NCBI RefSeq assembly: GCF_002305895.1 | Contig: NZ_CP022203.1 | Span: 7,660,001-7,724,000 of the forward strand | Origin: Corallococcus macrosporus DSM 14697 | GTDB lineage: Bacteria; Myxococcota; Myxococcia; Myxococcales; Myxococcaceae | Reading direction: 5' to 3' | DNA: 64,000 bases | Shown: piece after piece, positions 20,411-31,693 of the stretch | How the letters are laid out: each line of letters opens with the position of its first letter | Numbering within the stretch: position 1 is the stretch's first letter | The notes under the pieces: model-generated | Seen by the model: the letters and a program-made list of their open reading frames with translations, nothing else | What the model was told of the DNA's origin: nothing | The model's database searches: none | Program-made: the position numbers and the translations under genes

Positions 20411-21478
20411 TCAACGGCTCCGGCGCCGGTAACCCGCCAGGCCCATCAGCCCCAGCAGCGAGAAGGCCGCCACGGAGCCGCCCGTGCTGCTGCACCCCGG
20501 CTGCGCCGCCACGCCATCCTCCGACGAAATGCCTCCCGGCGTGGGCACGTTCGGCCCCTGCGGCGTCCCTGAGTCCAGGGAGGACGCCGGGGTCCCCGCG
20601 TCCTGCTCCGGCTCCCCGGGCATGCCCGCGTCCCCGGGGTCCACGCCGCCCGCGTCCGCCGCGGTCCCCGCGTCCTCGGGCGGCTCCGGGTCCACGGGGC
20701 CACCCCCGGCATCCACCGGGGCGCCCGCGTCCGGCGTTCCAGCGTCCACGGGCGGTGGCGGCGGCTCCACGGGGAGCACGTCCGACAGCTCCGTCGCCTG
20801 CATGAAACCGTCGTGGTAGACGACCCCCACGGGCCGCACCGTGTCACTGCGGTAGAGGCCGAGCTTCAGGTAGTTGCGCTGCCCCGAGTACATCGTCATC
20901 GCGCCGCGCCTGGGCAGCACCCGCTCCTTGTTGTGCCACAGCTCGACGAAGCCCACCTTCGGGTCCGGCGACCACTTCGCGTGCAGGATGAACTCGTGCC
21001 ACACGCCCCGGGTGAGCTTCGTGCGCCAGGGAATCTCCGCCGTTCCGGGGAGCGACAGCCGAATCTCCTCCCCCTTCACGTAGAACTCCACCGGCGGGGA
21101 GCCGCAGCACCCGTCATGGTGCCACTGGGTGAAGAGCTGCCAGGTGTCCGCGCTGGGGAAGTCGTTCGCGAACATCACCTTCCAGCGGTAGTAGTACTCC
21201 GAGCCCACCGCCTCCCGGCTCATGTACACGAGCTCATTGCGGTTGCCGCTGGCGTTGATGGGGTCATCCCCCTGATACACCGTGGCCTTCAGCGCGTATT
21301 GGCCCTCGGCCACCGGGGACGTCACCACCTGGAGCCGGTTCGCATTCACCATCTGCGTGCTGGAGTACTGCGAGCGGTCACCCGTCTCGAAGTCCCCCCG
21401 CCACACCACGCCTGCCGAAGCGAGCCCGGGGACACACCACACCGCAAGCCATACGGGGACAAAGGCTCTCAAAGACAT
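20411..21478 (-). CDS. Heparin-lyase-I-like polysaccharide lyase with MYXO-CTERM anchor
   Basis: A 355-residue secreted protein. The signal peptide ends near GLASAG. The next ~220 residues have a jelly-roll pattern typical of the heparin lyase I-like/alginate lyase-like family (GDFETGDRSQYSS, YYRWKVMFANDFP, FTQWHHDGCCGSPP and the WHEFILHAKWSPDPKVG block). A long Pro/Asp/Ala/Gly spacer follows. The last ~28 residues are a MYXO-CTERM signal: a Cys (QPGCSS), a hydrophobic helix and an RRRSR end, the signal processed by myxosortase to display proteins on the cell surface. The ATG at 21478 is preferred because it starts the signal peptide. The lyase substrate is not known. Confidence 0.82.
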   Translation of the reverse strand: MSLRAFVPVWLAVWCVPGLASAGVVWRGDFETGDRSQYSSTQMVNANRLQVVTSPVAEGQYALKATVYQGDDPINASGNRNELVYMSREAVGSEYYYRWKVMFANDFPSADTWQLFTQWHHDGCCGSPPVEFYVKGEEIRLSLPGTAEIPWRTKLTRGVWHEFILHAKWSPDPKVGFVELWHNKERVLPRRGAMTMYSGQRNYLKLGLYRSDTVRPVGVVYHDGFMQATELSDVLPVEPPPPPVDAGTPDAGAPVDAGGGPVDPEPPEDAGTAADAGGVDPGDAGMPGEPEQDAGTPASSLDSGTPQGPNVPTPGGISSEDGVAAQPGCSSTGGSVAAFSLLGLMGLAGYRRRSR

Positions 21479-21783
21479 CCTCGCGAAGGTCTGGAATGCA
21501 ACGACTGACACACCGTATCGCAAACCATTCCCTGCTTCATTCCCCGGGCAGAACCTTCCCACTGGCCTGGCAACCCGGCGGCCAGCCATGCAAGCCCCTG
21601 GATGTTTCACGTTGTGTTTCACGACGGGCGCGGGCGCCTGACACACTCCGGCCGTCCTTGCAAGCCACTCGCAACACGTCGCGTCATCAACACGGCGAAC
21701 AACCTTCAAGCTGACTGGCGGCAGGTGTGGGGTATGGTCTCTCCTTTCCGGCGCTCCACCACAGGAGCGTCCCGAGTGTCCCC
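21479..21783. other. Divergent intergenic region, no gene seen
   Basis: 305 bp between the divergent lyase and astA genes. It is AT-richer than coding DNA and should hold both promoters, but no clear -35/-10 pair or operator was found. No credible ORF. Confidence 0.4.
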
Positions 21784-22809
21784 ATGCTTGTCCTGCGTGA
21801 CGTCCAGAAGACCGACCTGCCCGGGCTGAAGCGGCTCGCGGCCGTGCTGAACACGGTGAACCTGCCGAACAACGAAGAAACGCTGTCGGCCATCGTGGAC
21901 ACGTCGGTGAAGAGCTTCGCGGGCAAGGTGAAGAACCCCTTCGAGCGCGAGTACCTCTTCGTGCTGGAGGACGTGCGCAACAGCCTCATCATCGGCACGT
22001 CGATGATCATCGCGCAGCACGGCACCTACGAGGCCCCGCACATCTACTACGAGGTGAGCGAGCGCGAGCACTACTCCGCGTCCCTCTCCCGTCACCTTCG
22101 CCACAAGGTCCTCTCCATCGCCTACAACTACGAGGGCCCCACGGAGGTGGGCGGGCTCGTCGTGGACCCGCCCTACCGCGCCACGCCGGACAAGCCCGGC
22201 AAGCAGCTCTCCTACGGGCGCTTCCTCTTCATCGCCATGCACCGGCGGCTGTTCCGTCCCCGCGTGCTGGCGGAGCTGCTGCCGCCGCTGCTGCCGGACG
22301 GCCGCAGCCTGCTGTGGGAGGCCTGCGGCAAGAAGTTCACCGGCCTGACCTACCAGGAGGCGGACCGCCTCAGCCGGCAGAACAAGGAGTTCATCAAGGA
22401 GCTCTTCCCCGCCTCGGACATCTACGCGTCGCTCTTCCCCACGCGCGTGCAGAAGGTGCTGGGCGAGGTCGGTCCGCAGACGCGCGGCGTGCAGCGCATG
22501 CTGGAGCGCATCGGCTTCAAGTACATGGAGCGCATCGACCCGTTCGACGGCGGCCCCCACTTCGAGGCCGACACCGCCGACATCAGCCTGGTGCGCAAGT
22601 ACCGGACGCTCAAGGTGGCGGACGGGGACTTCGACCTGCAGGGCGATGACGTCCTCGTCGCGGTGGAGAGCGACGCCGGACGCAACCGCTTCCGCGCCGT
22701 GCGGTGCCAGGCGCGCCTGGAGAACACCCAGGCCTTCCTGCCCGCCCGCGCCAAGGAGGTGCTGGACGTCCAGGCTGGCGCGAAGGTGTCCGTCATCCCC
22801 TTCGAGTAG
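21784..22809 (+). CDS. astA: Arginine N-succinyltransferase
   Basis: A 341-residue enzyme of the GNAT-like AstA family. It transfers succinyl from succinyl-CoA to arginine, the first step of the ammonia-producing AST pathway of arginine catabolism. Family-specific features are the N-terminal MLVLRDVQKTDLPGLKRLA block, the GTSMIIAQHGTY strand, GGLVVDPPYR and the DIYASLFP segment. Length matches the family. No astB, astC, astD or astE gene lies nearby, so the rest of the pathway would have to be elsewhere. The ATG at 21784 begins the conserved part directly. Confidence 0.9.
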   Translation: MLVLRDVQKTDLPGLKRLAAVLNTVNLPNNEETLSAIVDTSVKSFAGKVKNPFEREYLFVLEDVRNSLIIGTSMIIAQHGTYEAPHIYYEVSEREHYSASLSRHLRHKVLSIAYNYEGPTEVGGLVVDPPYRATPDKPGKQLSYGRFLFIAMHRRLFRPRVLAELLPPLLPDGRSLLWEACGKKFTGLTYQEADRLSRQNKEFIKELFPASDIYASLFPTRVQKVLGEVGPQTRGVQRMLERIGFKYMERIDPFDGGPHFEADTADISLVRKYRTLKVADGDFDLQGDDVLVAVESDAGRNRFRAVRCQARLENTQAFLPARAKEVLDVQAGAKVSVIPFE

Positions 22810-22818
22810 CGCGTCGCC

Positions 22819-23844
22819 TCACGGCCGGCGCACCACCCGGTGCGCCCCGCGCAGCAGCGACAGCCAGCGCGCCCCCGCCTCCAGCGCCGGGCCCTGCGCC
22901 TCCGCCAGGGCAATGGGCAGGTGCGTGCGCGGCGTCACCGGGTCCAGGGACGTCGGGTCCAGGTCCAGCGTCCCCCCCGCCGCCAGCGCCACGCGCACCC
23001 AGGCGTGAGGCCGCGCCGGTCCGCCGTCCACCACCAGCAGCCCGTGCACCACGGCCACCTTCACGCCTCGCGCGCGGGCCCCCGCGGCGAAGCGCAGCGC
23101 GTGCGCCAGGCACCCGCCTGCCTCCCCCTCGCCGCCCTCGCGCCAATCCGCCCCGCCAGGCCGCTTCTCCGGAAAGGCCGCGTGGACCTCGGCCGCCAAC
23201 GCCCGCGCCGCCGCCGCGTCCCACGGCGTCTGGCCGTCCAGACGCGCCGGCACCGCGAGCGGCGGCTCCAGCGACAGCGCCCCTCCTCGCCCCTCCACCG
23301 GCAGCCCGTCCGCGAAGAGCTCCGGCGGCGCGCGCAGCCGCTCCCCGGGCGCGGCCACGGTGAAGCGCGAATCGCCGACCTCCAGCGCCTCCATCCGGCC
23401 GTCGGCCCCGTAACGTGCCTGGAAGGCCGCTCCCATCAACGTTCCCTCCGCGCGCTGGCCGTCCACCCGCGTGACGCAGTGCGGGCCCTCGCGCCCCGTC
23501 AGCTCCTCCCGCCCCACCACGCAGCCCACGGCGGGCGCTCGTCTCCAGAGCCACAGCGCCTGCGGCACGGCCCGCGAGCCCCGCACCCGGCCCTCACCAT
23601 CCAACGCCAGGGCCTGCTCCCGGCGGCGCTCTCCAGCCCGCCCTGCGCGGGTGTGCAGGTGCTGGCTGACGTAGGTGAAGCGGCCCGGCTCGAGCTTCAG
23701 CGTCACCGTCCCCACCGGCACGCCGCGCCAGGAGAACACATAGCGCGTCACCTCCTCCCGATTCGCTGACGGCGAGCCGGCCCTGTCAGGATTCCCAGAC
23801 TTCACTGGAAGCGTGAGGAGCAGCAGGGTGAGCAGGGCGGCCAC
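22819..23844 (-). CDS. Exported transglutaminase-like superfamily protein
   Basis: A 341-residue protein with an N-terminal hydrophobic segment that looks like a signal peptide or anchor. The first ~200 residues contain beta strands (TRYVFSWRGVPVGTVTLKLE). The C-terminal third has the Cys-His-Asp arrangement of transglutaminase-like cysteine proteases: GGCLAHALRF, then RPHAWVRV, then LDLDPTS. Such domains in bacterial envelopes act as peptidases or scaffolds. The start is GTG 23844. It is divergent from the chemoreceptor-like gene. The substrate is unknown. Confidence 0.75.
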   Translation of the reverse strand: MAALLTLLLLTLPVKSGNPDRAGSPSANREEVTRYVFSWRGVPVGTVTLKLEPGRFTYVSQHLHTRAGRAGERRREQALALDGEGRVRGSRAVPQALWLWRRAPAVGCVVGREELTGREGPHCVTRVDGQRAEGTLMGAAFQARYGADGRMEALEVGDSRFTVAAPGERLRAPPELFADGLPVEGRGGALSLEPPLAVPARLDGQTPWDAAAARALAAEVHAAFPEKRPGGADWREGGEGEAGGCLAHALRFAAGARARGVKVAVVHGLLVVDGGPARPHAWVRVALAAGGTLDLDPTSLDPVTPRTHLPIALAEAQGPALEAGARWLSLLRGAHRVVRRP

Positions 23845-23906
23845 GGCCCCATTGTGCGGCGTTTTGAGGACCCGCGCGAGAAGGCGGAGTAGCGTGCCAG
23901 TCCTTC

Positions 23907-26900
23907 ATGGGCGCCAAACGGTACCTGTTCACGTTCGGCCTGGCGGCAGGGCTGGTCTCCGCGCTCCTCCTGGGGGGGCTGCTGCGGGCCGTGTCCGGGG
24001 GCCGCTGGCGAATGCCACCTGGGCGGTGGTGCTGCTCGCCACGCCCGCGCTCTACCTGGCAGGCGGCTACCTCGCGTGGTTCCGCTGGGCGGCGCTGCGG
24101 CGGAAGGTGCGCCGGCAGGTGATGGCACGGCTGGCGGAGGGTGACCTCACCACCACGGTGGGCCCGCGCTATGAAGGCCACGAGGACGTACGCCGGCTCA
24201 TCCTGTCCCTGCGGCGCGCGCTGGCCCAGGTGCAACGGGTGACGGCCAACCTGCACCGCACCAGCACGGACGTGAGCGGCCAGGCCCGGATGCTGCTGGA
24301 GGCCGCCCGGCGGCAGGGCGGCGCGGTGGAGCGGACCCTGGAAGCCGTCAGCGGCATGGGCGGCAGCCTCCAGGTGGCCGGCAAGCGGGTGCACCAGTTG
24401 GAGGTCTTCGCCGTCGACACCACCGGCGCGCTGCTGGAGATGACGGAGCGGCTGGAGCAGGTGGTGGACTCGCTCGCGCAGGTCAACACCTTCGCGCACA
24501 ACACCACGTCGCTGATGCAGGCCATGGCGGAGCGGATGGCCAACATCGCCGCGTCCGGCGACGAGCTCGGCCGCTTCGCCAGCGAGGCCGAGGACTTCGT
24601 CGCCGCGGTCGAGGGCGGAATCGACTCGGTGCGCCGCCGCGCCAACGAGACGAATCAGCTCGCCATCGCCGTCACGGCCACCGCTGAGCGTGGCGAAGTG
24701 CTGGTGGGTGACAGCGTCAAGGGCATGTACCGGGTGGAGGAGACAGTCCGGAAGGCCGCCGAGCTGATGGAGATGCTGGGCACGCGCTCGACGGAAATCG
24801 GGCGCATCGTCGACGTCATCCAGGAGATTGCGGACCAGACGAACCTGCTGGCCCTCAACGCCGCCATCATCGCCGCCCAGGCGGGCGTGCAGGGGCGCCC
24901 CTTCGGCGTGGTGGCCAACGAGATTCGCAACCTGGCTGAACGCACCACGCGCTCCACCCGCGAAATCGGCGCCATGGTGGCGGGCGTGCGTGACGCCGTG
25001 CAGACGGCGGTGGCGCTGGTGCAGGAAGGCCGCGAGCGAGCCACCGCCGGAGTGGCCCTGGGCGACCGCGCCGCGGAAGCCCTGGTGGAGATTCGCACCA
25101 TCACCCAGCGCACCTTCACCGCCGTCGAGGCCACCGTGGCGGAGACGCAGCGGCTGGAGGCCCAGGGCGCCACAGTGGTGGAGGCCAGCCGACGCGTCGC
25201 CCTGCGGGTGGAGGACGTCACGCGCATGGCCATCGAGCAGTCCGGCCATGCGCGCGAGCTGCTGCGCCAGACGCAGGAGATGGCCCGCGTGGGACAGGGC
25301 GCCTCGCAGAAGGCGGAGGCCCAGGCGCGCACCGGGCGGGACCTCTCCGAATCGGTGGTGCGGCTGAGCGCCGCACTGGAGGAACTGCGCTCCGCCAACG
25401 TGGTGCTCACCAAGGCCGATGCGTCCATTCGCGAGGAAGTGGCGCAGGTGCGCGAGGACGCGCGCCGGGTCATCCGAATTGGAGACGACCTGACGCGCAC
25501 GGTGGACCAGTTGGGCCACGAAGCCGAGGGCCTCGAAGCCGAGGTGTACCACTTCAAGCTCCCAACGCCCCACTCTGGAGGAACGCTGCGCGTAGGGATG
25601 CACCAGGCCGCGTCCCTGCGGCACCGGCAGGCGGTGGACCCGCTCTTCAGCGTGGAGAACCAGGTCTCCGAGCTCACCGCGTGCGTGTTCTCCACGCTGG
25701 TACGCAGGGAGGACGGTGGGCTGGAGCCCGACCTGGCCGAGCGCTGGGACGCCGACCCTTCCGCGCGCCGCTACCGCTTCTATCTGCGCCGCGGCGTCAC
25801 CTTCCACGACGGCACGCTGCTCACGGCGGGTGACGTGAAGCGCCACCTGGAGCGCCTGCTGGACCCGGCGCTCCGGTCCCCCGACCGGAGCCTCCTGGAG
25901 GACGTGGAGGGCGCATCCGATTACGCCGCGGGCATGGCACGCGACGTCTCGGGCCTGGAGGTCCTGGACGACCACACGCTGGAGATCCGCCTGCGCGAGC
26001 CGAAGGCCTTCTTCCTCCAGTTGATGGCGCTCACCGCCACCGCGGTGGCCCGGACAGACGCCAACGGGCGGCTGGTGGGCACCGGGCCGTTCCGGCTCCT
26101 CTCCCTGGAACCCGAGCGCGTGGTGTTGGAGCGCAACCCCTCCTACTGGCGCTCCGGAGGGCCGCTGGTCGAGCGGCTGGAATTCCTGCTGACCGGCTCA
26201 CGCAGGGAAGCGGTGACGCTGCTGAAGCAGGGGGCGGTGGACCTGGTGTCCTTCCTCGACACGGAGCACGTGGAAGTGCCCGGTCTGGAGGCCTTCCAGG
26301 TGGCCGCGAGCACCACGCCGTCCACCGCCTTCGTGGTGCTCAACCACCGGGAGCCCCCCTTCGATGACGGACGTGTGCGCCGAGCCCTCCGCGCGGGCAT
26401 GGACGTCCAGGCGATGGTGGCCCAATTCCACCCGGGCGCGCGCGTGGCGCGCTCGCTGACGCCGCCCGAGCTGTTGGATGACGCGGACATGGGGCCCGCC
26501 CCCGTGCCCAACGTCGCCCTCGCCGAGCAACTGCTGCGCGAGGCCGGCCTGCGCCGGCTGCGGCTGACGCTGCACCGTCCCACCGGGCATGACCACTCCG
26601 CGGAGGATGCGGTGCTCTTCCGTCCACTGCTTCAGGCAGGGCTGCTGGAGTTGCGCTACGTGGAAATGTCGCGAGAGGAATACACGGCGCAGGTGACAGA
26701 GGGACGGCTCCCCGCCTTCCGCAACCGCTGGCTGGCCGACTACCCGGACCCAGACACCTTCCTGAACTTCCTCCTCAACTCCAGCGCCCAGACTGTTTTC
26801 CCCATGGGCTACCACAACCCGGAGCTGGACCGGCTCACGGCCGAAGCCCGTGTCTCCATCGACCCCGAGCTGCGGCGCCAGCTCTACCTGCGCGCGGAGA

Positions 26901-27052
26901 AGTTGTTCCAAGAGGACTGCCCGCTCATCCCGCTGTACCACGACCGCGCCCACGCAGCCGCAACACCCGCTGTGCAGAATTTGCGGCTGCACCAGACACC
27001 GCCCCAAGTGCGCTTCGAAGACCTGTGGGTGGACCCGAACGCAGCCACCTGA
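23907..27052 (+). CDS. Chemoreceptor (MCP) signalling domain fused to a C-terminal SBP_bac_5 solute-binding domain, apparent frameshift
   Basis: About 1,048 codons once joined. The ATG at 23907 begins a signal-anchor-like helix (RYLFTFGLAAGLVSALLLGG) in frame 3. The rest is in frame 2, and one missing base in the G7 run 23972-23978 would join them smoothly. A second membrane helix follows (TWAVVLLATPALYLAGGYLAWF), then a HAMP-like linker and a long MCP coiled coil. The hairpin tip (about 24823-24945) reads NAAIIAAQAGVQGRPFGVVANE. The hyperconserved Glu, Arg and Glu of canonical tips are here Ile, Gln and Val. From about 25576 to the end lies a full SBP_bac_5 domain (GGTLRVGM, LAERWDADP, VTFHDGTLLTAGDV, DPDTFLNF, PLIPLYHDR), the binding protein of peptide ABC transporters. 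With both membrane helices near the N-terminus, the binding domain should be cytoplasmic. Ligand unknown. Confidence 0.88.
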
Positions 27053-27078
27053 CAAGCGGCGGCCAGGCGCCCCACCAG

Positions 27079-27106
27079 GGGCCGGGGCCGTCGGAGGTCC
27101 CGGCCC
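27079..27106 (+). terminator. Hairpin downstream of the MCP-SBP gene
   Basis: An 8-bp perfect GC-only stem (GGGCCGGG / CCCGGCCC) with a 12-base loop, 27 bp after the stop codon. No T-run. A likely transcription terminator. Confidence 0.5.
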
Positions 27107-27151
27107 GACATGTCGCGCCCCTTGAGCCTCCGTGCCCCAAGGTGGCATCGC

Positions 27152-27186
27152 GATGCGCAGGCGACACGTCAGTCCGCCTGCGCATC
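27152..27186. repeat. Perfect 12-bp inverted repeat
   Basis: GATGCGCAGGCG (27152-27163) and CGCCTGCGCATC (27175-27186) flank an 11-base loop. It lies between the convergent MCP-SBP and TetR genes. It could be a second terminator, this time for the TetR transcript, or a protein-binding site. Confidence 0.6.
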
Positions 27187-27471
27187 GCCGCGCCTGAGGC
27201 ATCTGCTCGAAGCGCCGCGCCCACCCATCCCGTCCCCCGATACCGTCCGCACCACAAGAGGAGCCAGGGCCTTCACCAGGAGTGGCACACGTGCACCGAG
27301 GCGACGGAGATGGCGTTGTGTTCTGGGGCAGGCATGGAAACCCAGCATCCCGCCGCCCCACACGCTCGCGCTGGCCCGAAGCCGGATGCGCCGCGGGCAA
27401 ACACCCGGCAACAGCGCCACCGCCGTCGCGCGATTCAAACGAATCACCACACACCCCCACTGCAACAACGC
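27187..27471. other. Intergenic stretch without a credible gene
   Basis: Several ORFs cross this DNA on both strands, but none has a recognisable domain or a plausible start. It is treated as the non-coding 3' flank of the TetR gene. Confidence 0.4.
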
Positions 27472-28135
27472 TCACGCACGGACTTGGGAGAACTTCTCGC
27501 TGAGGCAGCCCTTCGTCAGGAGGGGGAATGCCGCCACCTCGTGGGTTGTCGGGCGCCTCCGGAGCGAGCGCCCGCCAGAGGGCCTCTCCGGTAATCTGGA
27601 CGTCTTCTTCACGCATCCCCTCGCCCTGGCCCGCCCGGCGCACGAGCTCCGCGAGGACTCCCCACACCATGCACTCGTGAATCCACGTGCGCCCCTTTGG
27701 GAAGGCCCCCTCCCGCTCGCCATGTCCGAGCACCTCCAGCACCTGCGCGCGCGTCCGCCCGTCATGCTCCCCCGGCGTGTCCGCGTCTGGATGGGGGTGG
27801 AGGAAGGTGAAGCCCACGAGGTGGGGCTGCAGCAGCGCCCAGGTCGCCAGCTCGCGCCAGAAGGCGAGGAAGACGTCGCGAAACCCCTGCCTCAGCGGGT
27901 CGCCGTCCGCCATCTGGTAGGCGACGAAACAGGCATAGGACAGGTCGCGCTCGGTGAGGGCCCGTATCGCCCTCGCGATGCCCTGCTTGCTGCCGTAGTA
28001 GCGGTACAGCGAGCCCACCGAGAGCCGCGTGGCACGGGCCAGCTCCGCGGCCCGCACGTTGTCCAGACCCCGCTGGGCCAGCAACTCCGCCGCGTCACAC
28101 AACCTGGATTCGCGCAACTGCGCCAACGTGTACAT
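27472..28135 (-). CDS. TetR family regulator with uncertain, probably frameshifted C-terminus
   Basis: The ATG at 28135 begins a normal TetR DNA-binding domain: ALREF-like N-terminal helices, the helix-turn-helix LARATRLSVGSLYRYYGSKQG at about residues 31-51, then ARAIRALTERD. The ligand-binding region continues to about residue 195 (GEALWRALAP). After this the frame has no stop until 26198, running antisense through the end of the MCP-SBP gene as low-complexity sequence. The neighbouring frame from about 27555 reads PTTHEVAAFPLLTKGCLSEKF and ends with a stop at 27472. That gives a TetR of normal length (~220 aa) if one indel is assumed. The target is unknown. The gene's own upstream region is the repeat-bearing DNA at 28.2-29.2 kb. 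Confidence 0.6.
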
Positions 28136-29416
28136 CCGCCCTCCCCCGTCCACCCCTGCGCCACGACGCCTTCAGTGACGTTCGTGCGACGATGACCTAT
28201 CTACAAGGTGGGTCTGACATGGCCGAACGCGCGGAGTGCATCGAGTCCTGATGCCTGAGTCGTCCCCCTTGGCAGCGCTCTCGCACTGGAATGAACGTTC
28301 CTTCCAAGACGACAGGCTCCGGCAGCGAGAGCGGGAGCGGCCGGGACTCCAGGCCCGAACGCCCCAGACTCCGGTAGCAAATTCGCTGCGATTGAGACCG
28401 CGCCGCGACCGGAACGCGCGACCCCTCCCCCGACGGAGGGCAGGGCAAGGCGCGAGAGGGACTCACTCGACGCGCGATCGTCGTCCGGCTCCGGGGTTGA
28501 GTGCGTGCCCCCCTATAGATTCACGACGAGTGCGCCCGTTCTTCCGTGGCGACAGGCGCAATGGGGGCCTCAGTGAGCTGACGCGTAGACGAGCTCAAGG
28601 ACAGGAACGCGGCCGACGGAGGCTCGAAGCACCAGCATCTGCGAATGAAGATGGCAGCCCACGTCTGCGCCTCCCAACCACGAGTCGGACCTGACTCGCT
28701 GTATGGGAAGCCTGGACCCTGCGGACTGGCGGAGCTCCGCTTCGACGACCTGGTCCCGCTCGAGGATGCCCCACTCCCGCCTGGAAGGGCTGCCCTTTGG
28801 AAGCTGTTCTCGCGGAATGAACATTCCTTCCACGGCCGTCCTTGAATGAAGGGGAGCGGTCGGTCCGGCGTGAGGCCCCACTCCCACGCTATAGGAATGG
28901 CCGCCGAAAGCTGTTTTCGTGAGACGAACGTTCCTTCCACGGCCGTACTTTGATGAAGGGGGAAGTCCATCCAGCGCGTGTCCTCGTCTCACTCCAGGAC
29001 GAAAGGAACCGCCCTCCCGACGCTGTCCTCATGGAATGAGCGTTCCTTCCACCGCTTCGCGCCAATCGACCGGTGAATGGCTGACGGAGATTCCTTTCGT
29101 TGACGTGACGACAGGGCTGGCGGACTGAGACGCGCTCGGAATGAGCGTTCCTTCCACGACCGCACGCCCGAGGCCGGCACGAGCGAGGCATGGCGCCTTG
29201 CTGGGGGCGGCTCTTCCAACGGTTGCGGAATATCAAAGGCACGCCACTCACAAACGATGGGACGTGCTTCAGGCTGGGTGAGGACCCGGCCGTGGCCTTA
29301 CTGGCGACCTTCATGGGCGTCCGCATTCGTGCCCGGATTGGATTTTCGCTGGTGGCTCCGGGTTGGCGGAGAGAGCCCGGGTACTTGACGCGAAAGCTGT
29401 CCGTTGGGCGCGGGCC
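28136..29416. other. 1.3-kb non-coding region with repeated palindromes
   Basis: No ORF here is convincing on either strand. The possible products are Arg/Ser-rich and repeat the translation of the palindrome (WKERSF, VEGTF), which shows they are by-products of the repeat. Base composition is more even than in the coding DNA. The region separates the TetR gene from a large lipoprotein gene whose stop is at 29417. It would contain the TetR promoter at its left end. Confidence 0.6.
28288..29156. repeat. Five copies of an 18-19-bp imperfect palindrome, partly in ~105-112-bp units
   Basis: Consensus GGAATGARCGTTCCTTCCA, an imperfect dyad of half-site GGAAtGAAC facing GTTCcTTCC. Copies start at 28288, 28814, 28921 (first bases diverged to GAGAC), 29033 and 29138. 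Spacings of the last four are 107, 112 and 105 bp. The gap between the first two is 526 bp, about five units. Homology extends beyond the core: CTGTTCTCG-like sequence before and CGGCCGT(a/c)CTTtgATGAAGGGG after the second and third copies, so these are diverged tandem units and not just scattered sites. All five are in the same orientation. Spacers are too long and too variable for CRISPR. Confidence 0.8.
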
Positions 29417-31693
29417 TTACGGCGGCTCGCTGCGGGTGCGTGCCGAGCTGCCATGACGCTGAGGCCAACCACGGTCTTCCACCTTGAAGTCCTTGCCCAA
29501 ACGGTACACTTCCAAGCGCCACACGCCGTTCCGACTCAAGACGACATACAGGTGCTGCTCCTGGAAGGCGGCACCTGCCACGTATGGACGTTCAGGGAGC
29601 GGGCAACTGCCTACGCGTGCGCCTCGCGCAAAGAATTGAATCCAGGTCTGGCGGCCTTCTGGCAGCGCAGCGTCGGCAAGTACCCCCACCGCGTCCCCTT
29701 GGAGCAAAGCGGCCTCGTACACCGCCCCCGGGGCCGTGTCGTTCGGAAGCGCATCCACCTCCCACACCACGTGCCCGGACTCCGGATTCATGGCACGGAG
29801 CACCACGCGCTCTTCCTGCATCGAGCAGGGGATACCGTCTGTCCGCGCGCACGCACGAGCGAAGAGATGCCCAGGCAGTCCCGCCGGAGGCAGCAACGCG
29901 GGCTCCGCGATGGGAATTCGTGCCGCGGCTCCGTCGTCCCCATCCACGACCAGGACTGGCGCACCGCCATCCAAGGGCACCAGGGCGCGGGCCCCCACCA
30001 ACAGCCGCCCCCCTGCGATTGCCAGGGAGGCGCCCCCATCCGGGATGCCACCGTCCACCATCGCGCTCAACATCAACTCCGTGCCCCCATCCGCAGCAGA
30101 TGCCGCGTGGAGCCCCTTCGAGCGAGTACCCGCCTTCGCGTCAGGGATGGCAGGGACGTCGTTCGGCTTCGGGTTGCCGCTGCGCGCTCCGGTGAATGCA
30201 CGGCGTGCGTCTCGTACGGCGTCGCCACCGGCGGCCTCGTCCACTCGTGCCAATCGCCCATCGGCCGTGTAGAGGTAGGCCACGCCCTCGGCGTCCAGTC
30301 CCAACCGGGCCTCGCCTCGCCAGGCCTCCACCGGCGATACACCCAACCGCGTGCCCGCATCCGCGCCTCCCGCCAGCCATACCAGCCTCGCCGAATCGGG
30401 TGCGGAGCCTCCGTCTTCCACGCTTCCCGCATCCGGCATGCCCCGCCACGCGACATACGCGAGGACGTCCTCCTCGCGTGTGAGCGCGACGTGGCTTGCG
30501 ACCGATGCGCCCTCGCCCGCTCCCAGCGAGTTCCAGGAGGCATGCCAGAGGCGAGCCCCCGTTCCGCGCGGCGCGTAGGCCTCCATGCCATCTGGTGCAT
30601 GCACCACCACCCCGGCATCCGATACGGCCAGCAGCGTCCTCGCTCCGCCATCCGGATATGGCGCCGCGTAACGCAGCAGGCCCGAGCGCGTGTACGCGAC
30701 CAACTGGCAGCCCGCGTCCCCACCACAGACGGAGGTGAAGATGGCGTCTTCCGACACGAGCAACACGGCCCCGCGCCCGTCCTCCACCGGCGCTCCCTCC
30801 AGGTCCAGGCTGAGCTCCGGCTCAAGCTCCACAGGGGCCGGACGCTGGCAAACGCCTCCCTGGCAGGTGCCTTCGCCCTGGCACGCCGTGGCGGGAGCAC
30901 AGACGAAGCCCTCAGGCGGAGTCACCGCCCGGCATGTCCCACTGAAGCAGAGGCGCGCCGTCTGGCAATCCACCGGGCCGCAAGGACTGAAATCGTCAGC
31001 ATCCACCGCCGTGCAGCCCTCGTCCCGGTCGCACACGCCCACCTTGCAGGGGCTCTCCGGTGCGGGACACGCCGCCTGCGTCGTCACACACCCCTGCGTT
31101 GGCGAACACGCATCCACCGTGCACGGATTGTCGTCATCACACGTCCTGGGGCTGCCCACACAGGCTCCCGCCTGACAGCGTCCGTCCACGAGGCAGCGGC
31201 TGTCCGGCGTGCACGCGGCACCTTCCTCCAGCGGCGTCTCCACGCACATCCCCGACGCCACGTCGAAGCGGGACTCATGGCAGGGCCGCTCCGGGCACGG
31301 CGCGGGCCGGATGCCCATGCCGATGAGGCGGACGGACGCCGTCAGTCCCGCGCCCGACAACACCAGCGTCCCCTCCGAAGGCCCATGGCCCGCGGTGAAC
31401 ACGACCTCCACTTCCGTGGCGCCACCGCCGGGCACAACCGCTTCAGACGTCGCCAGGGCGAAGGGGCCTTGCACGGACGCCGCCACCGTCAGGCTCGTCC
31501 GGCCGGTGGCCAGCACCGTCACCGCGCGGCGAGCCTGAGCCCCCTCCAGCACCCGGCCAAAGTCCAGCACGGTGTCCCTGGGGCGGAAGCCCAGGCGCGA
31601 GCCTCCCGTTCCCGAATCTCCCGGCTGGCACCCGCCCATGCCGAGCGCGAGCGCCAGCAGCAGGGGACCCCAGGAACGCGTACGCGGATGCAT
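29417..31693 (-). CDS. Large lipoprotein with Ig-like, Cys-rich and beta-propeller-like parts
   Basis: A 758-residue protein of unknown function. The signal peptide ends in the lipobox GMGGC. Residues ~35-130 resemble the HYDIN/choice-of-anchor-D Ig-like domain (DFGRVLEGAQARRAVTV, VVPGGGATEVEVVFTAG). Residues ~135-295 are Cys-rich, with repeats of the type CxxGxC and C(T/D)DDNPCTVD, common in myxobacterial surface proteins. The rest has repeated strands with DGG turns and AYLYTADGRLARVDE-type segments, suggesting a quinoprotein-like beta propeller. No catalytic motif. Probably exposed on the outer membrane surface. The ATG at 31693 fits the signal peptide. Confidence 0.75.
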   Translation of the reverse strand: MHPRTRSWGPLLLALALGMGGCQPGDSGTGGSRLGFRPRDTVLDFGRVLEGAQARRAVTVLATGRTSLTVAASVQGPFALATSEAVVPGGGATEVEVVFTAGHGPSEGTLVLSGAGLTASVRLIGMGIRPAPCPERPCHESRFDVASGMCVETPLEEGAACTPDSRCLVDGRCQAGACVGSPRTCDDDNPCTVDACSPTQGCVTTQAACPAPESPCKVGVCDRDEGCTAVDADDFSPCGPVDCQTARLCFSGTCRAVTPPEGFVCAPATACQGEGTCQGGVCQRPAPVELEPELSLDLEGAPVEDGRGAVLLVSEDAIFTSVCGGDAGCQLVAYTRSGLLRYAAPYPDGGARTLLAVSDAGVVVHAPDGMEAYAPRGTGARLWHASWNSLGAGEGASVASHVALTREEDVLAYVAWRGMPDAGSVEDGGSAPDSARLVWLAGGADAGTRLGVSPVEAWRGEARLGLDAEGVAYLYTADGRLARVDEAAGGDAVRDARRAFTGARSGNPKPNDVPAIPDAKAGTRSKGLHAASAADGGTELMLSAMVDGGIPDGGASLAIAGGRLLVGARALVPLDGGAPVLVVDGDDGAAARIPIAEPALLPPAGLPGHLFARACARTDGIPCSMQEERVVLRAMNPESGHVVWEVDALPNDTAPGAVYEAALLQGDAVGVLADAALPEGRQTWIQFFARGARVGSCPLPERPYVAGAAFQEQHLYVVLSRNGVWRLEVYRLGKDFKVEDRGWPQRHGSSARTRSEPP

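Follow-up and report, generated by a model that had tools for sequence, protein, structure and literature searches.

McpK-type fusions, in which a chemoreceptor carries at its C-terminus a peptide-binding domain of the SBP_bac_5 type that faces the cell interior, form a genuine receptor family, conserved in many genomes and under functional constraint. The member studied here lies on the forward strand of the window, a stretch of 64,000 nucleotides from Corallococcus macrosporus DSM 14697 (contig NZ_CP022203.1, positions 7,660,001 to 7,724,000), and is orthologous to McpK of Myxococcus xanthus (MXAN_6456). Taken as a whole, the evidence is best explained by a chemoreceptor of class 64H that is anchored in the membrane and has its sensor at the C-terminus, a reading that we regard as reasonably probable. 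In the textbook view chemoreceptors sense the outside and signal to the inside, and SBP_bac_5 proteins are exported. The McpK family reverses both, receptor and binding protein being inward-facing. For M. xanthus the mcpK gene and its solute-binding domain are already known, and the gene as such is not new; added here are the topology argument, the fixed register, class 64H, the range over two phyla and a changed prediction of the pathway.

Domain architecture and identity of the gene

Pfam matches MCPsignal (PF00015, E 1.6e-30) and then SBP_bac_5 (PF00496, E 4.1e-65) in one open frame, the order that a first-pass annotation had read from the letters of the DNA. Its description of the C-terminal part as a full SBP_bac_5 domain is confirmed by coverage of the profile from position 2 to 365 of 368, by a PDB sequence search, in which peptide-binding proteins are closest to the SBP domain of McpK, and by the OppA fold found in a structure search; the reservation that this part might fail to match SBP_bac_5 does not hold. 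The Pfam match to MCPsignal, which spans only the middle of the hairpin (24680-25174), and the conserved tip QTNLLALNA..AQAG are those of a methyl-accepting chemotaxis protein. No SgrR-type N-terminal DNA-binding domain is detected by Pfam, the N-terminus being occupied by TM1-TM2. The features of the gene are compiled in Table 1.

Table 1. Features of the mcpK gene at 23907-27052 of the window.
Feature	Position	Strand	Basis or remark
N-terminus and TM1 (MGAKRYLFTFGLAAGLVSALLLGGLLRAVS)	23907..23996	+	translation; frame differs from the remainder in the window genome, same frame in relatives
TM1 helix 2-30			structure model
G tract, 5 G against 6 in relatives; frameshift in the TM1-TM2 loop	23997..24001	+	DNA alignment with L012
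TM2 (WAVVLLATPALYLAGGYLAWF), then basic RWAALRRKVRR	24020..24082	+	hydropathy of relatives; model helix 36-77
HAMP-like segment (RLAEGDLT ... LSLRRAL)	24083..24226	+	GDL motif kept in the family; alignment with own-genome paralogue; no Pfam HAMP match
Antiparallel coiled-coil hairpin, ~32 heptads per arm	24182..25552	+	periodicity, model helices, arm lengths
Hairpin tip QTNLLALNAAIIAAQAGVQGRPFGV	24836..24910	+	
Receptor end AEVYHFKL and short linker PTPHS	25538..25576	+	alignment with own-genome paralogue L056
SBP_bac_5, OppA/DppA fold	25577..27049	+	Pfam, PDB sequence search, structure search
W-L-A-D-Y-P-D-P-D-T-F motif	26729..26761	+	alignment with OppA
First D of the motif, aligned with the OppA aspartate for the peptide N-terminus	26738-26740	+	
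Stop codon	27050-27052	+	

McpK of M. xanthus has the same domain order, length (1048 aa) and synteny as the window gene at ~95% identity (L120). The published entry (Moine et al. 2014, PMC3945109) places an MCP domain at 246-463 and names a bacterial extracellular solute-binding domain; it lists the latter together with class 44H and leaves its role unexplained. The texts consulted on McpK mention neither cytoplasmic sensing nor the fixed spacing of 247 residues, nor do they report class 64H, an acidobacterial family or the frameshift of the window genome, and a literature search, outside which most subscription journals lie, found no paper treating a fusion of MCPsignal and SBP_bac_5. The identity with McpK, the frameshift, the exceptional length of the hairpin and the occurrence outside the myxobacteria also go beyond the first-pass annotation.

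Topology and nature of the binding domain

It is strongly supported that the binding domain of McpK faces the cytoplasm. Relatives of the window gene have two hydrophobic N-terminal helices separated by ~10-15 residues, in agreement with the almost missing periplasmic loop described from the window alone, and a strongly basic stretch follows the second helix. Two helices, a short loop and a basic segment after TM2 place both ends of the protein inside. In four acidobacterial members (L146, L150, L152 and L157) hydropathy shows no hydrophobic helix, and there is no signal sequence; in the first three a clear N-terminus runs directly into the GDL segment; in this branch, which lacks membrane helices, the SBP domains can only be cytoplasmic. 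The earlier proposal that the binding domain lies inside the cell is thus supported by the two-helix topology and, independently, by the homologues without TM helices.

The structure search matched OppA, DppA and MppA at Z ~36 (35-37) over residues 550-1045; it tests mostly the SBP part, and no novelty is claimed for the coil. Of 35 family members, 34 have the OppA-type ligand aspartate, within an almost invariant WxADxPDPDxF motif whose first D aligns with OppA Asp419, the residue that binds the peptide amine. The fold over ~480 residues and the ligand-amine aspartate motif are common to McpK and OppA/DppA; the latter, however, are exported and have ABC-transporter partners, and the McpK domain has neither. 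Directly before the SBP domain there is no signal peptide or lipobox but the coiled coil and a short linker, and no ABC permease or ATPase genes adjoin mcpK, whose neighbours encode a polysaccharide lyase, AstA, a transglutaminase-like protein and a TetR regulator. The other SBP_bac_5 genes of the genome above the cut-off (n = 2) both lie beside ABC permease genes.

The cytoplasmic chemoreceptor TlpD of Helicobacter pylori has its sensor, the small zinc-binding CZB domain, after the signalling hairpin. Likened by description only, TlpD and McpK both have a C-terminal sensor inside the cell, that of McpK being a two-lobed binding protein of 490 residues. SgrR and SgrR-like proteins (e.g. DsvR of V. 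cholerae, PMC13060122) resemble McpK in having a C-terminal SBP_bac_5 domain in a cytoplasmic signalling protein; their output is an N-terminal DNA-binding domain with no membrane anchor, whereas McpK has a chemoreceptor hairpin.

Two other views of the binding domain have to be weighed. It would be periplasmic if a third membrane helix existed, and TMHMM indeed gave three helices for McpK (PMC3945109). We consider this highly improbable, because no third candidate passes the hydropathy analysis in L012, L036, L046 and L052, the coiled coil runs from HAMP to SBP without a break, and homologues without TM helices exist. The domain might, on the other hand, no longer bind a small ligand and serve as a docking module for another protein, such as a cytoplasmic one or a subunit of a transporter, as the loss of ABC transporter partners and signal peptide could suggest. 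This is unlikely in our opinion: members from two phyla retain the complete two-lobed fold as well as the pocket motif WxADxPDPDxF, which is hard to understand without a ligand in the cleft.

Geometry and class of the hairpin

Among the 44 Myxococcota proteins measured, the coil is nearly free of indels (229-233 residues from GDL to tip), and the distance from tip to SBP is 247 residues wherever the start motif is readable. Acidobacteriota again have 247 residues, at 21-31% identity, the single exception being L159, with 248 and one extra residue in the tip; their distances from membrane helix to tip also vary little, with TM1 ~284 and TM2 ~256-263 residues from the tip. Hydrophobicity averaged over 35 sequences follows an uninterrupted period of 3.5 residues from residue 89 to 549 of M. 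xanthus McpK, and no such period was found within the SBP domain in the same average. The AlphaFold model has helices at 93-325 and 327-547; its SBP domain is confident and its outer coil of low confidence. Given the fixed spacing, the unbroken periodicity and the AlphaFold helices, the C-terminal arm most likely returns to the level of HAMP, with the SBP domain located by the membrane on its cytoplasmic side.

Receptors of the same genome calibrate the length of the hairpin: the arms of DifA (169-170 residues) are two heptads above those of the 40H type (153-155 residues), as class 44H requires. McpK, with arms of 232 and 239 residues, does not have the 44H length of DifA; its C-terminal arm exceeds 44H by 10 heptads (239 - 169 = 70 residues) and 40H by 12 (239 - 155 = 84 residues). 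This fits hairpin class 64H, as assigned from arm length. The paralogue L056 of the same genome, by layout and length probably McpJ, has arms of 237 and 239 residues, shares the tip motif with McpK and ends with AEVRRFRV exactly where McpK has AEVYHFKL ahead of the SBP domain. Unlike McpK, it combines HAMP with an ordinary periplasmic region and lacks an SBP domain. To judge from these sequences, McpK looks like a receptor of the L056 type to which an SBP domain, minus its signal peptide, was appended.

The fit to 64H contradicts the published class and pathway of McpK. In the 2014 study McpK was placed in phylogenetic group 1 and class 44H and was tentatively tied to Dif (PMC3945109), which would have it signal together with DifA, also classed 44H, through the Dif system. 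Such a partnership appears very doubtful. The arms of McpK surpass those of DifA by about ten heptads, the tip motifs differ (NATIEAARAG in DifA, NAAIIAAQAG in McpK), and in the hairpin tree McpK and the other fusions group with the probable McpJ (support 86/82). Receptors that differ in length are considered not to mix (PMC3945109), from which we infer that McpK is unlikely to belong to Dif and more probably goes with the long-hairpin group; the partner kinase most likely belongs to the McpJ/Mcp7-Che7 group rather than to Dif. For a known M. xanthus receptor the predicted pathway thereby moves from Dif to the long-hairpin group. Mcp7 itself was considered as a partner of equal length and rejected: its distance of 239 residues from GDL to tip is incidental, and Mcp7 is a soluble coil of ~400 residues per arm. 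The Mcp7 of the window genome (L057:299-2848) extends ~400 residues to each side of the tip, far beyond what the Pfam domain suggests.

At the tip of McpK an I/Q variant replaces the usual E/R residues, and the M. xanthus group has in addition V for E; with this variant tip, coupling of McpK to CheA is not certain. Decay to a degenerate receptor is ruled out as the origin of the I/Q tip, which is a trait of the subclass and present in L056 and the acidobacterial fusions. Judged by the E. coli consensus only, one strict methylation motif is found at residue 488 of M. xanthus McpK, where it is not clearly conserved, and no conserved CheR/CheB methylation sites of this consensus were found in the family. 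CheW domains occur at 24 places in the window genome, and CheW-domain proteins are present in 12 of 12 acidobacterial genomes tested. Every mcp but mcpC was deleted in M. xanthus (PMC3945109), and McpK appears neither in the list without defect nor in that with S-motility defects; by elimination, from a text that is not explicit here, the mcpK mutant was probably among those with altered fruiting. McpK-GFP was not among the ten clearly localised fusions of that study.

Distribution and genomic neighbourhood

A search with the family profile matched 92 of 195 Myxococcota genomes, including 88 of the 96 from the window's own family and a few from other families of the phylum. The acidobacterial sample contains 28 full-length fusions in 27 of 297 genomes (about a tenth), and among the named genomes scanned, this domain order occurs in Thermoanaerobaculia, Aminicenantes, Blastocatellia and Pyrinomonas as well as in others of the phylum. 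The domain order for which other myxobacteria were to be searched is therefore present as a one-gene fusion across Myxococcota and also in Acidobacteriota. Kept in more than 100 genomes, the join is no artefact of two genes that are separate in homologues. The McpK-type fusion is ancient and common to two phyla. A tree of SBP domains separates those of the fusions from free-standing SBPs by one branch, at modest support (80/68). Several genomes of one genus, g8, have two full-length copies of McpK (G115, G116 and G119).

The synteny at 20411-31693 of the window, comprising a polysaccharide lyase, astA, the transglutaminase-like gene, mcpK and an Ig/PQQ-type gene, is kept in Myxococcus, Corallococcus and Hyalangium; the TetR gene near mcpK was matched in one relative only (L106). 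At five acidobacterial loci (L143, L151, L154, L165 and L176) the fusion gene is divergent from an adjoining relA/spoT, an adjacency that fits a nutrient sensor and proves nothing. ACT-domain and DUF711 genes lie downstream of the fusion in L139, L142, L151 and L154, and in the Blastocatellia loci L146, L150 and L152 the fusion without TM helices divergently adjoins a DUF4388(PATAN)-DnaJ-TPR gene. A further, apparently cytoplasmic use of SBP_bac_5 is found in an open frame of 1986 aa (L170:528-6485) with a Ser/Thr protein kinase, AAA_16 and a C-terminal SBP_bac_5 domain; frames of 1800-2300 aa with C-terminal SBP matches recur in Acidobacteriota.

Proposed mechanism

On the basis of its domains, their spacing, the topology established by homology and the purifying selection acting on the gene, McpK is most likely a cytoplasmic sensor of peptides or amino acids that feeds a Che pathway, for which we infer the class of ligand and the direction of the signal. 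The two N-terminal helices would anchor the protein without providing a periplasmic sensor. The N-terminal arm would span ~33 nm as far as the tip, where CheA/CheW bind, and the C-terminal arm would retrace the full distance; the OppA-like domain would thus lie on the cytoplasmic side, next to the HAMP-like end of the bundle near the membrane. A bound peptide or amino-acid-type ligand may close the two-lobed domain. Because the SBP domain is joined to the end of the C-terminal helix in fixed register, closure would move this helix, and such a twist or shift could alter CheA activity at the tip. McpK would thus report intracellular nutrients, plausibly as the cell chooses between movement, feeding and development. 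The general model, a 64H family of two phyla whose hairpin is driven in fixed register, from the membrane-proximal C-terminal end, by a cytoplasmic OppA-like domain that couples the intracellular peptide or amino-acid status (in some Acidobacteriota beside relA/spoT) to a chemosensory pathway, is put forward tentatively.

An inward-facing binding domain suggests that these bacteria adjust their behaviour to nutrients already imported. McpK is a candidate in the old question of how myxobacteria read internal nutrients before moving or building fruiting bodies, and its family offers a defined system for how C-terminal input drives a hairpin.

A frameshift in the window genome

The ATG at 23907 is the natural start, as had been annotated, but 23907-27052 is not a single frame in the window genome. 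The frame of this ATG carries TM1 and then reaches a stop; TM2, receptor and binding domain lie in another frame. Alignment of the DNA revealed one missing base in a G tract between TM1 and TM2, which has six G in L012 and five here. The other same-genus orthologues examined read through an intact MGAKRY-TM1-loop-TM2 arrangement, with the exception of G003, in which a deletion lies elsewhere.

The deletion from G6 to G5 is either a sequencing error or a recent mutation. Compared with near relatives, dN/dS is 0.01-0.04 for the coil and 0.08-0.10 for the SBP domain, much as between intact relatives, and the 1013 codons 3' of the frameshift show no relaxation of selection; selection of this strength on the downstream codons indicates that the frameshift is recent or an assembly error. 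In a scan of the window against G006 only three other gene comparisons were possibly shifted, a count that leaves error versus mutation undecided. The one-base deletion between TM1 and TM2 could also mean that mcpK is a pseudogene here, the anchored receptor being abolished in this genome and the family functional elsewhere. We find this somewhat unlikely, given the unrelaxed selection downstream, the frequency of G-tract deletions as sequencing errors and a possible downstream start of translation that would keep TM2. With the copy frameshifted, intact McpK may be absent from the source strain. In one Myxococcus genome (G003, locus L051) an 11-bp deletion lies exactly in the linker and puts the SBP domain out of the frame of the receptor.
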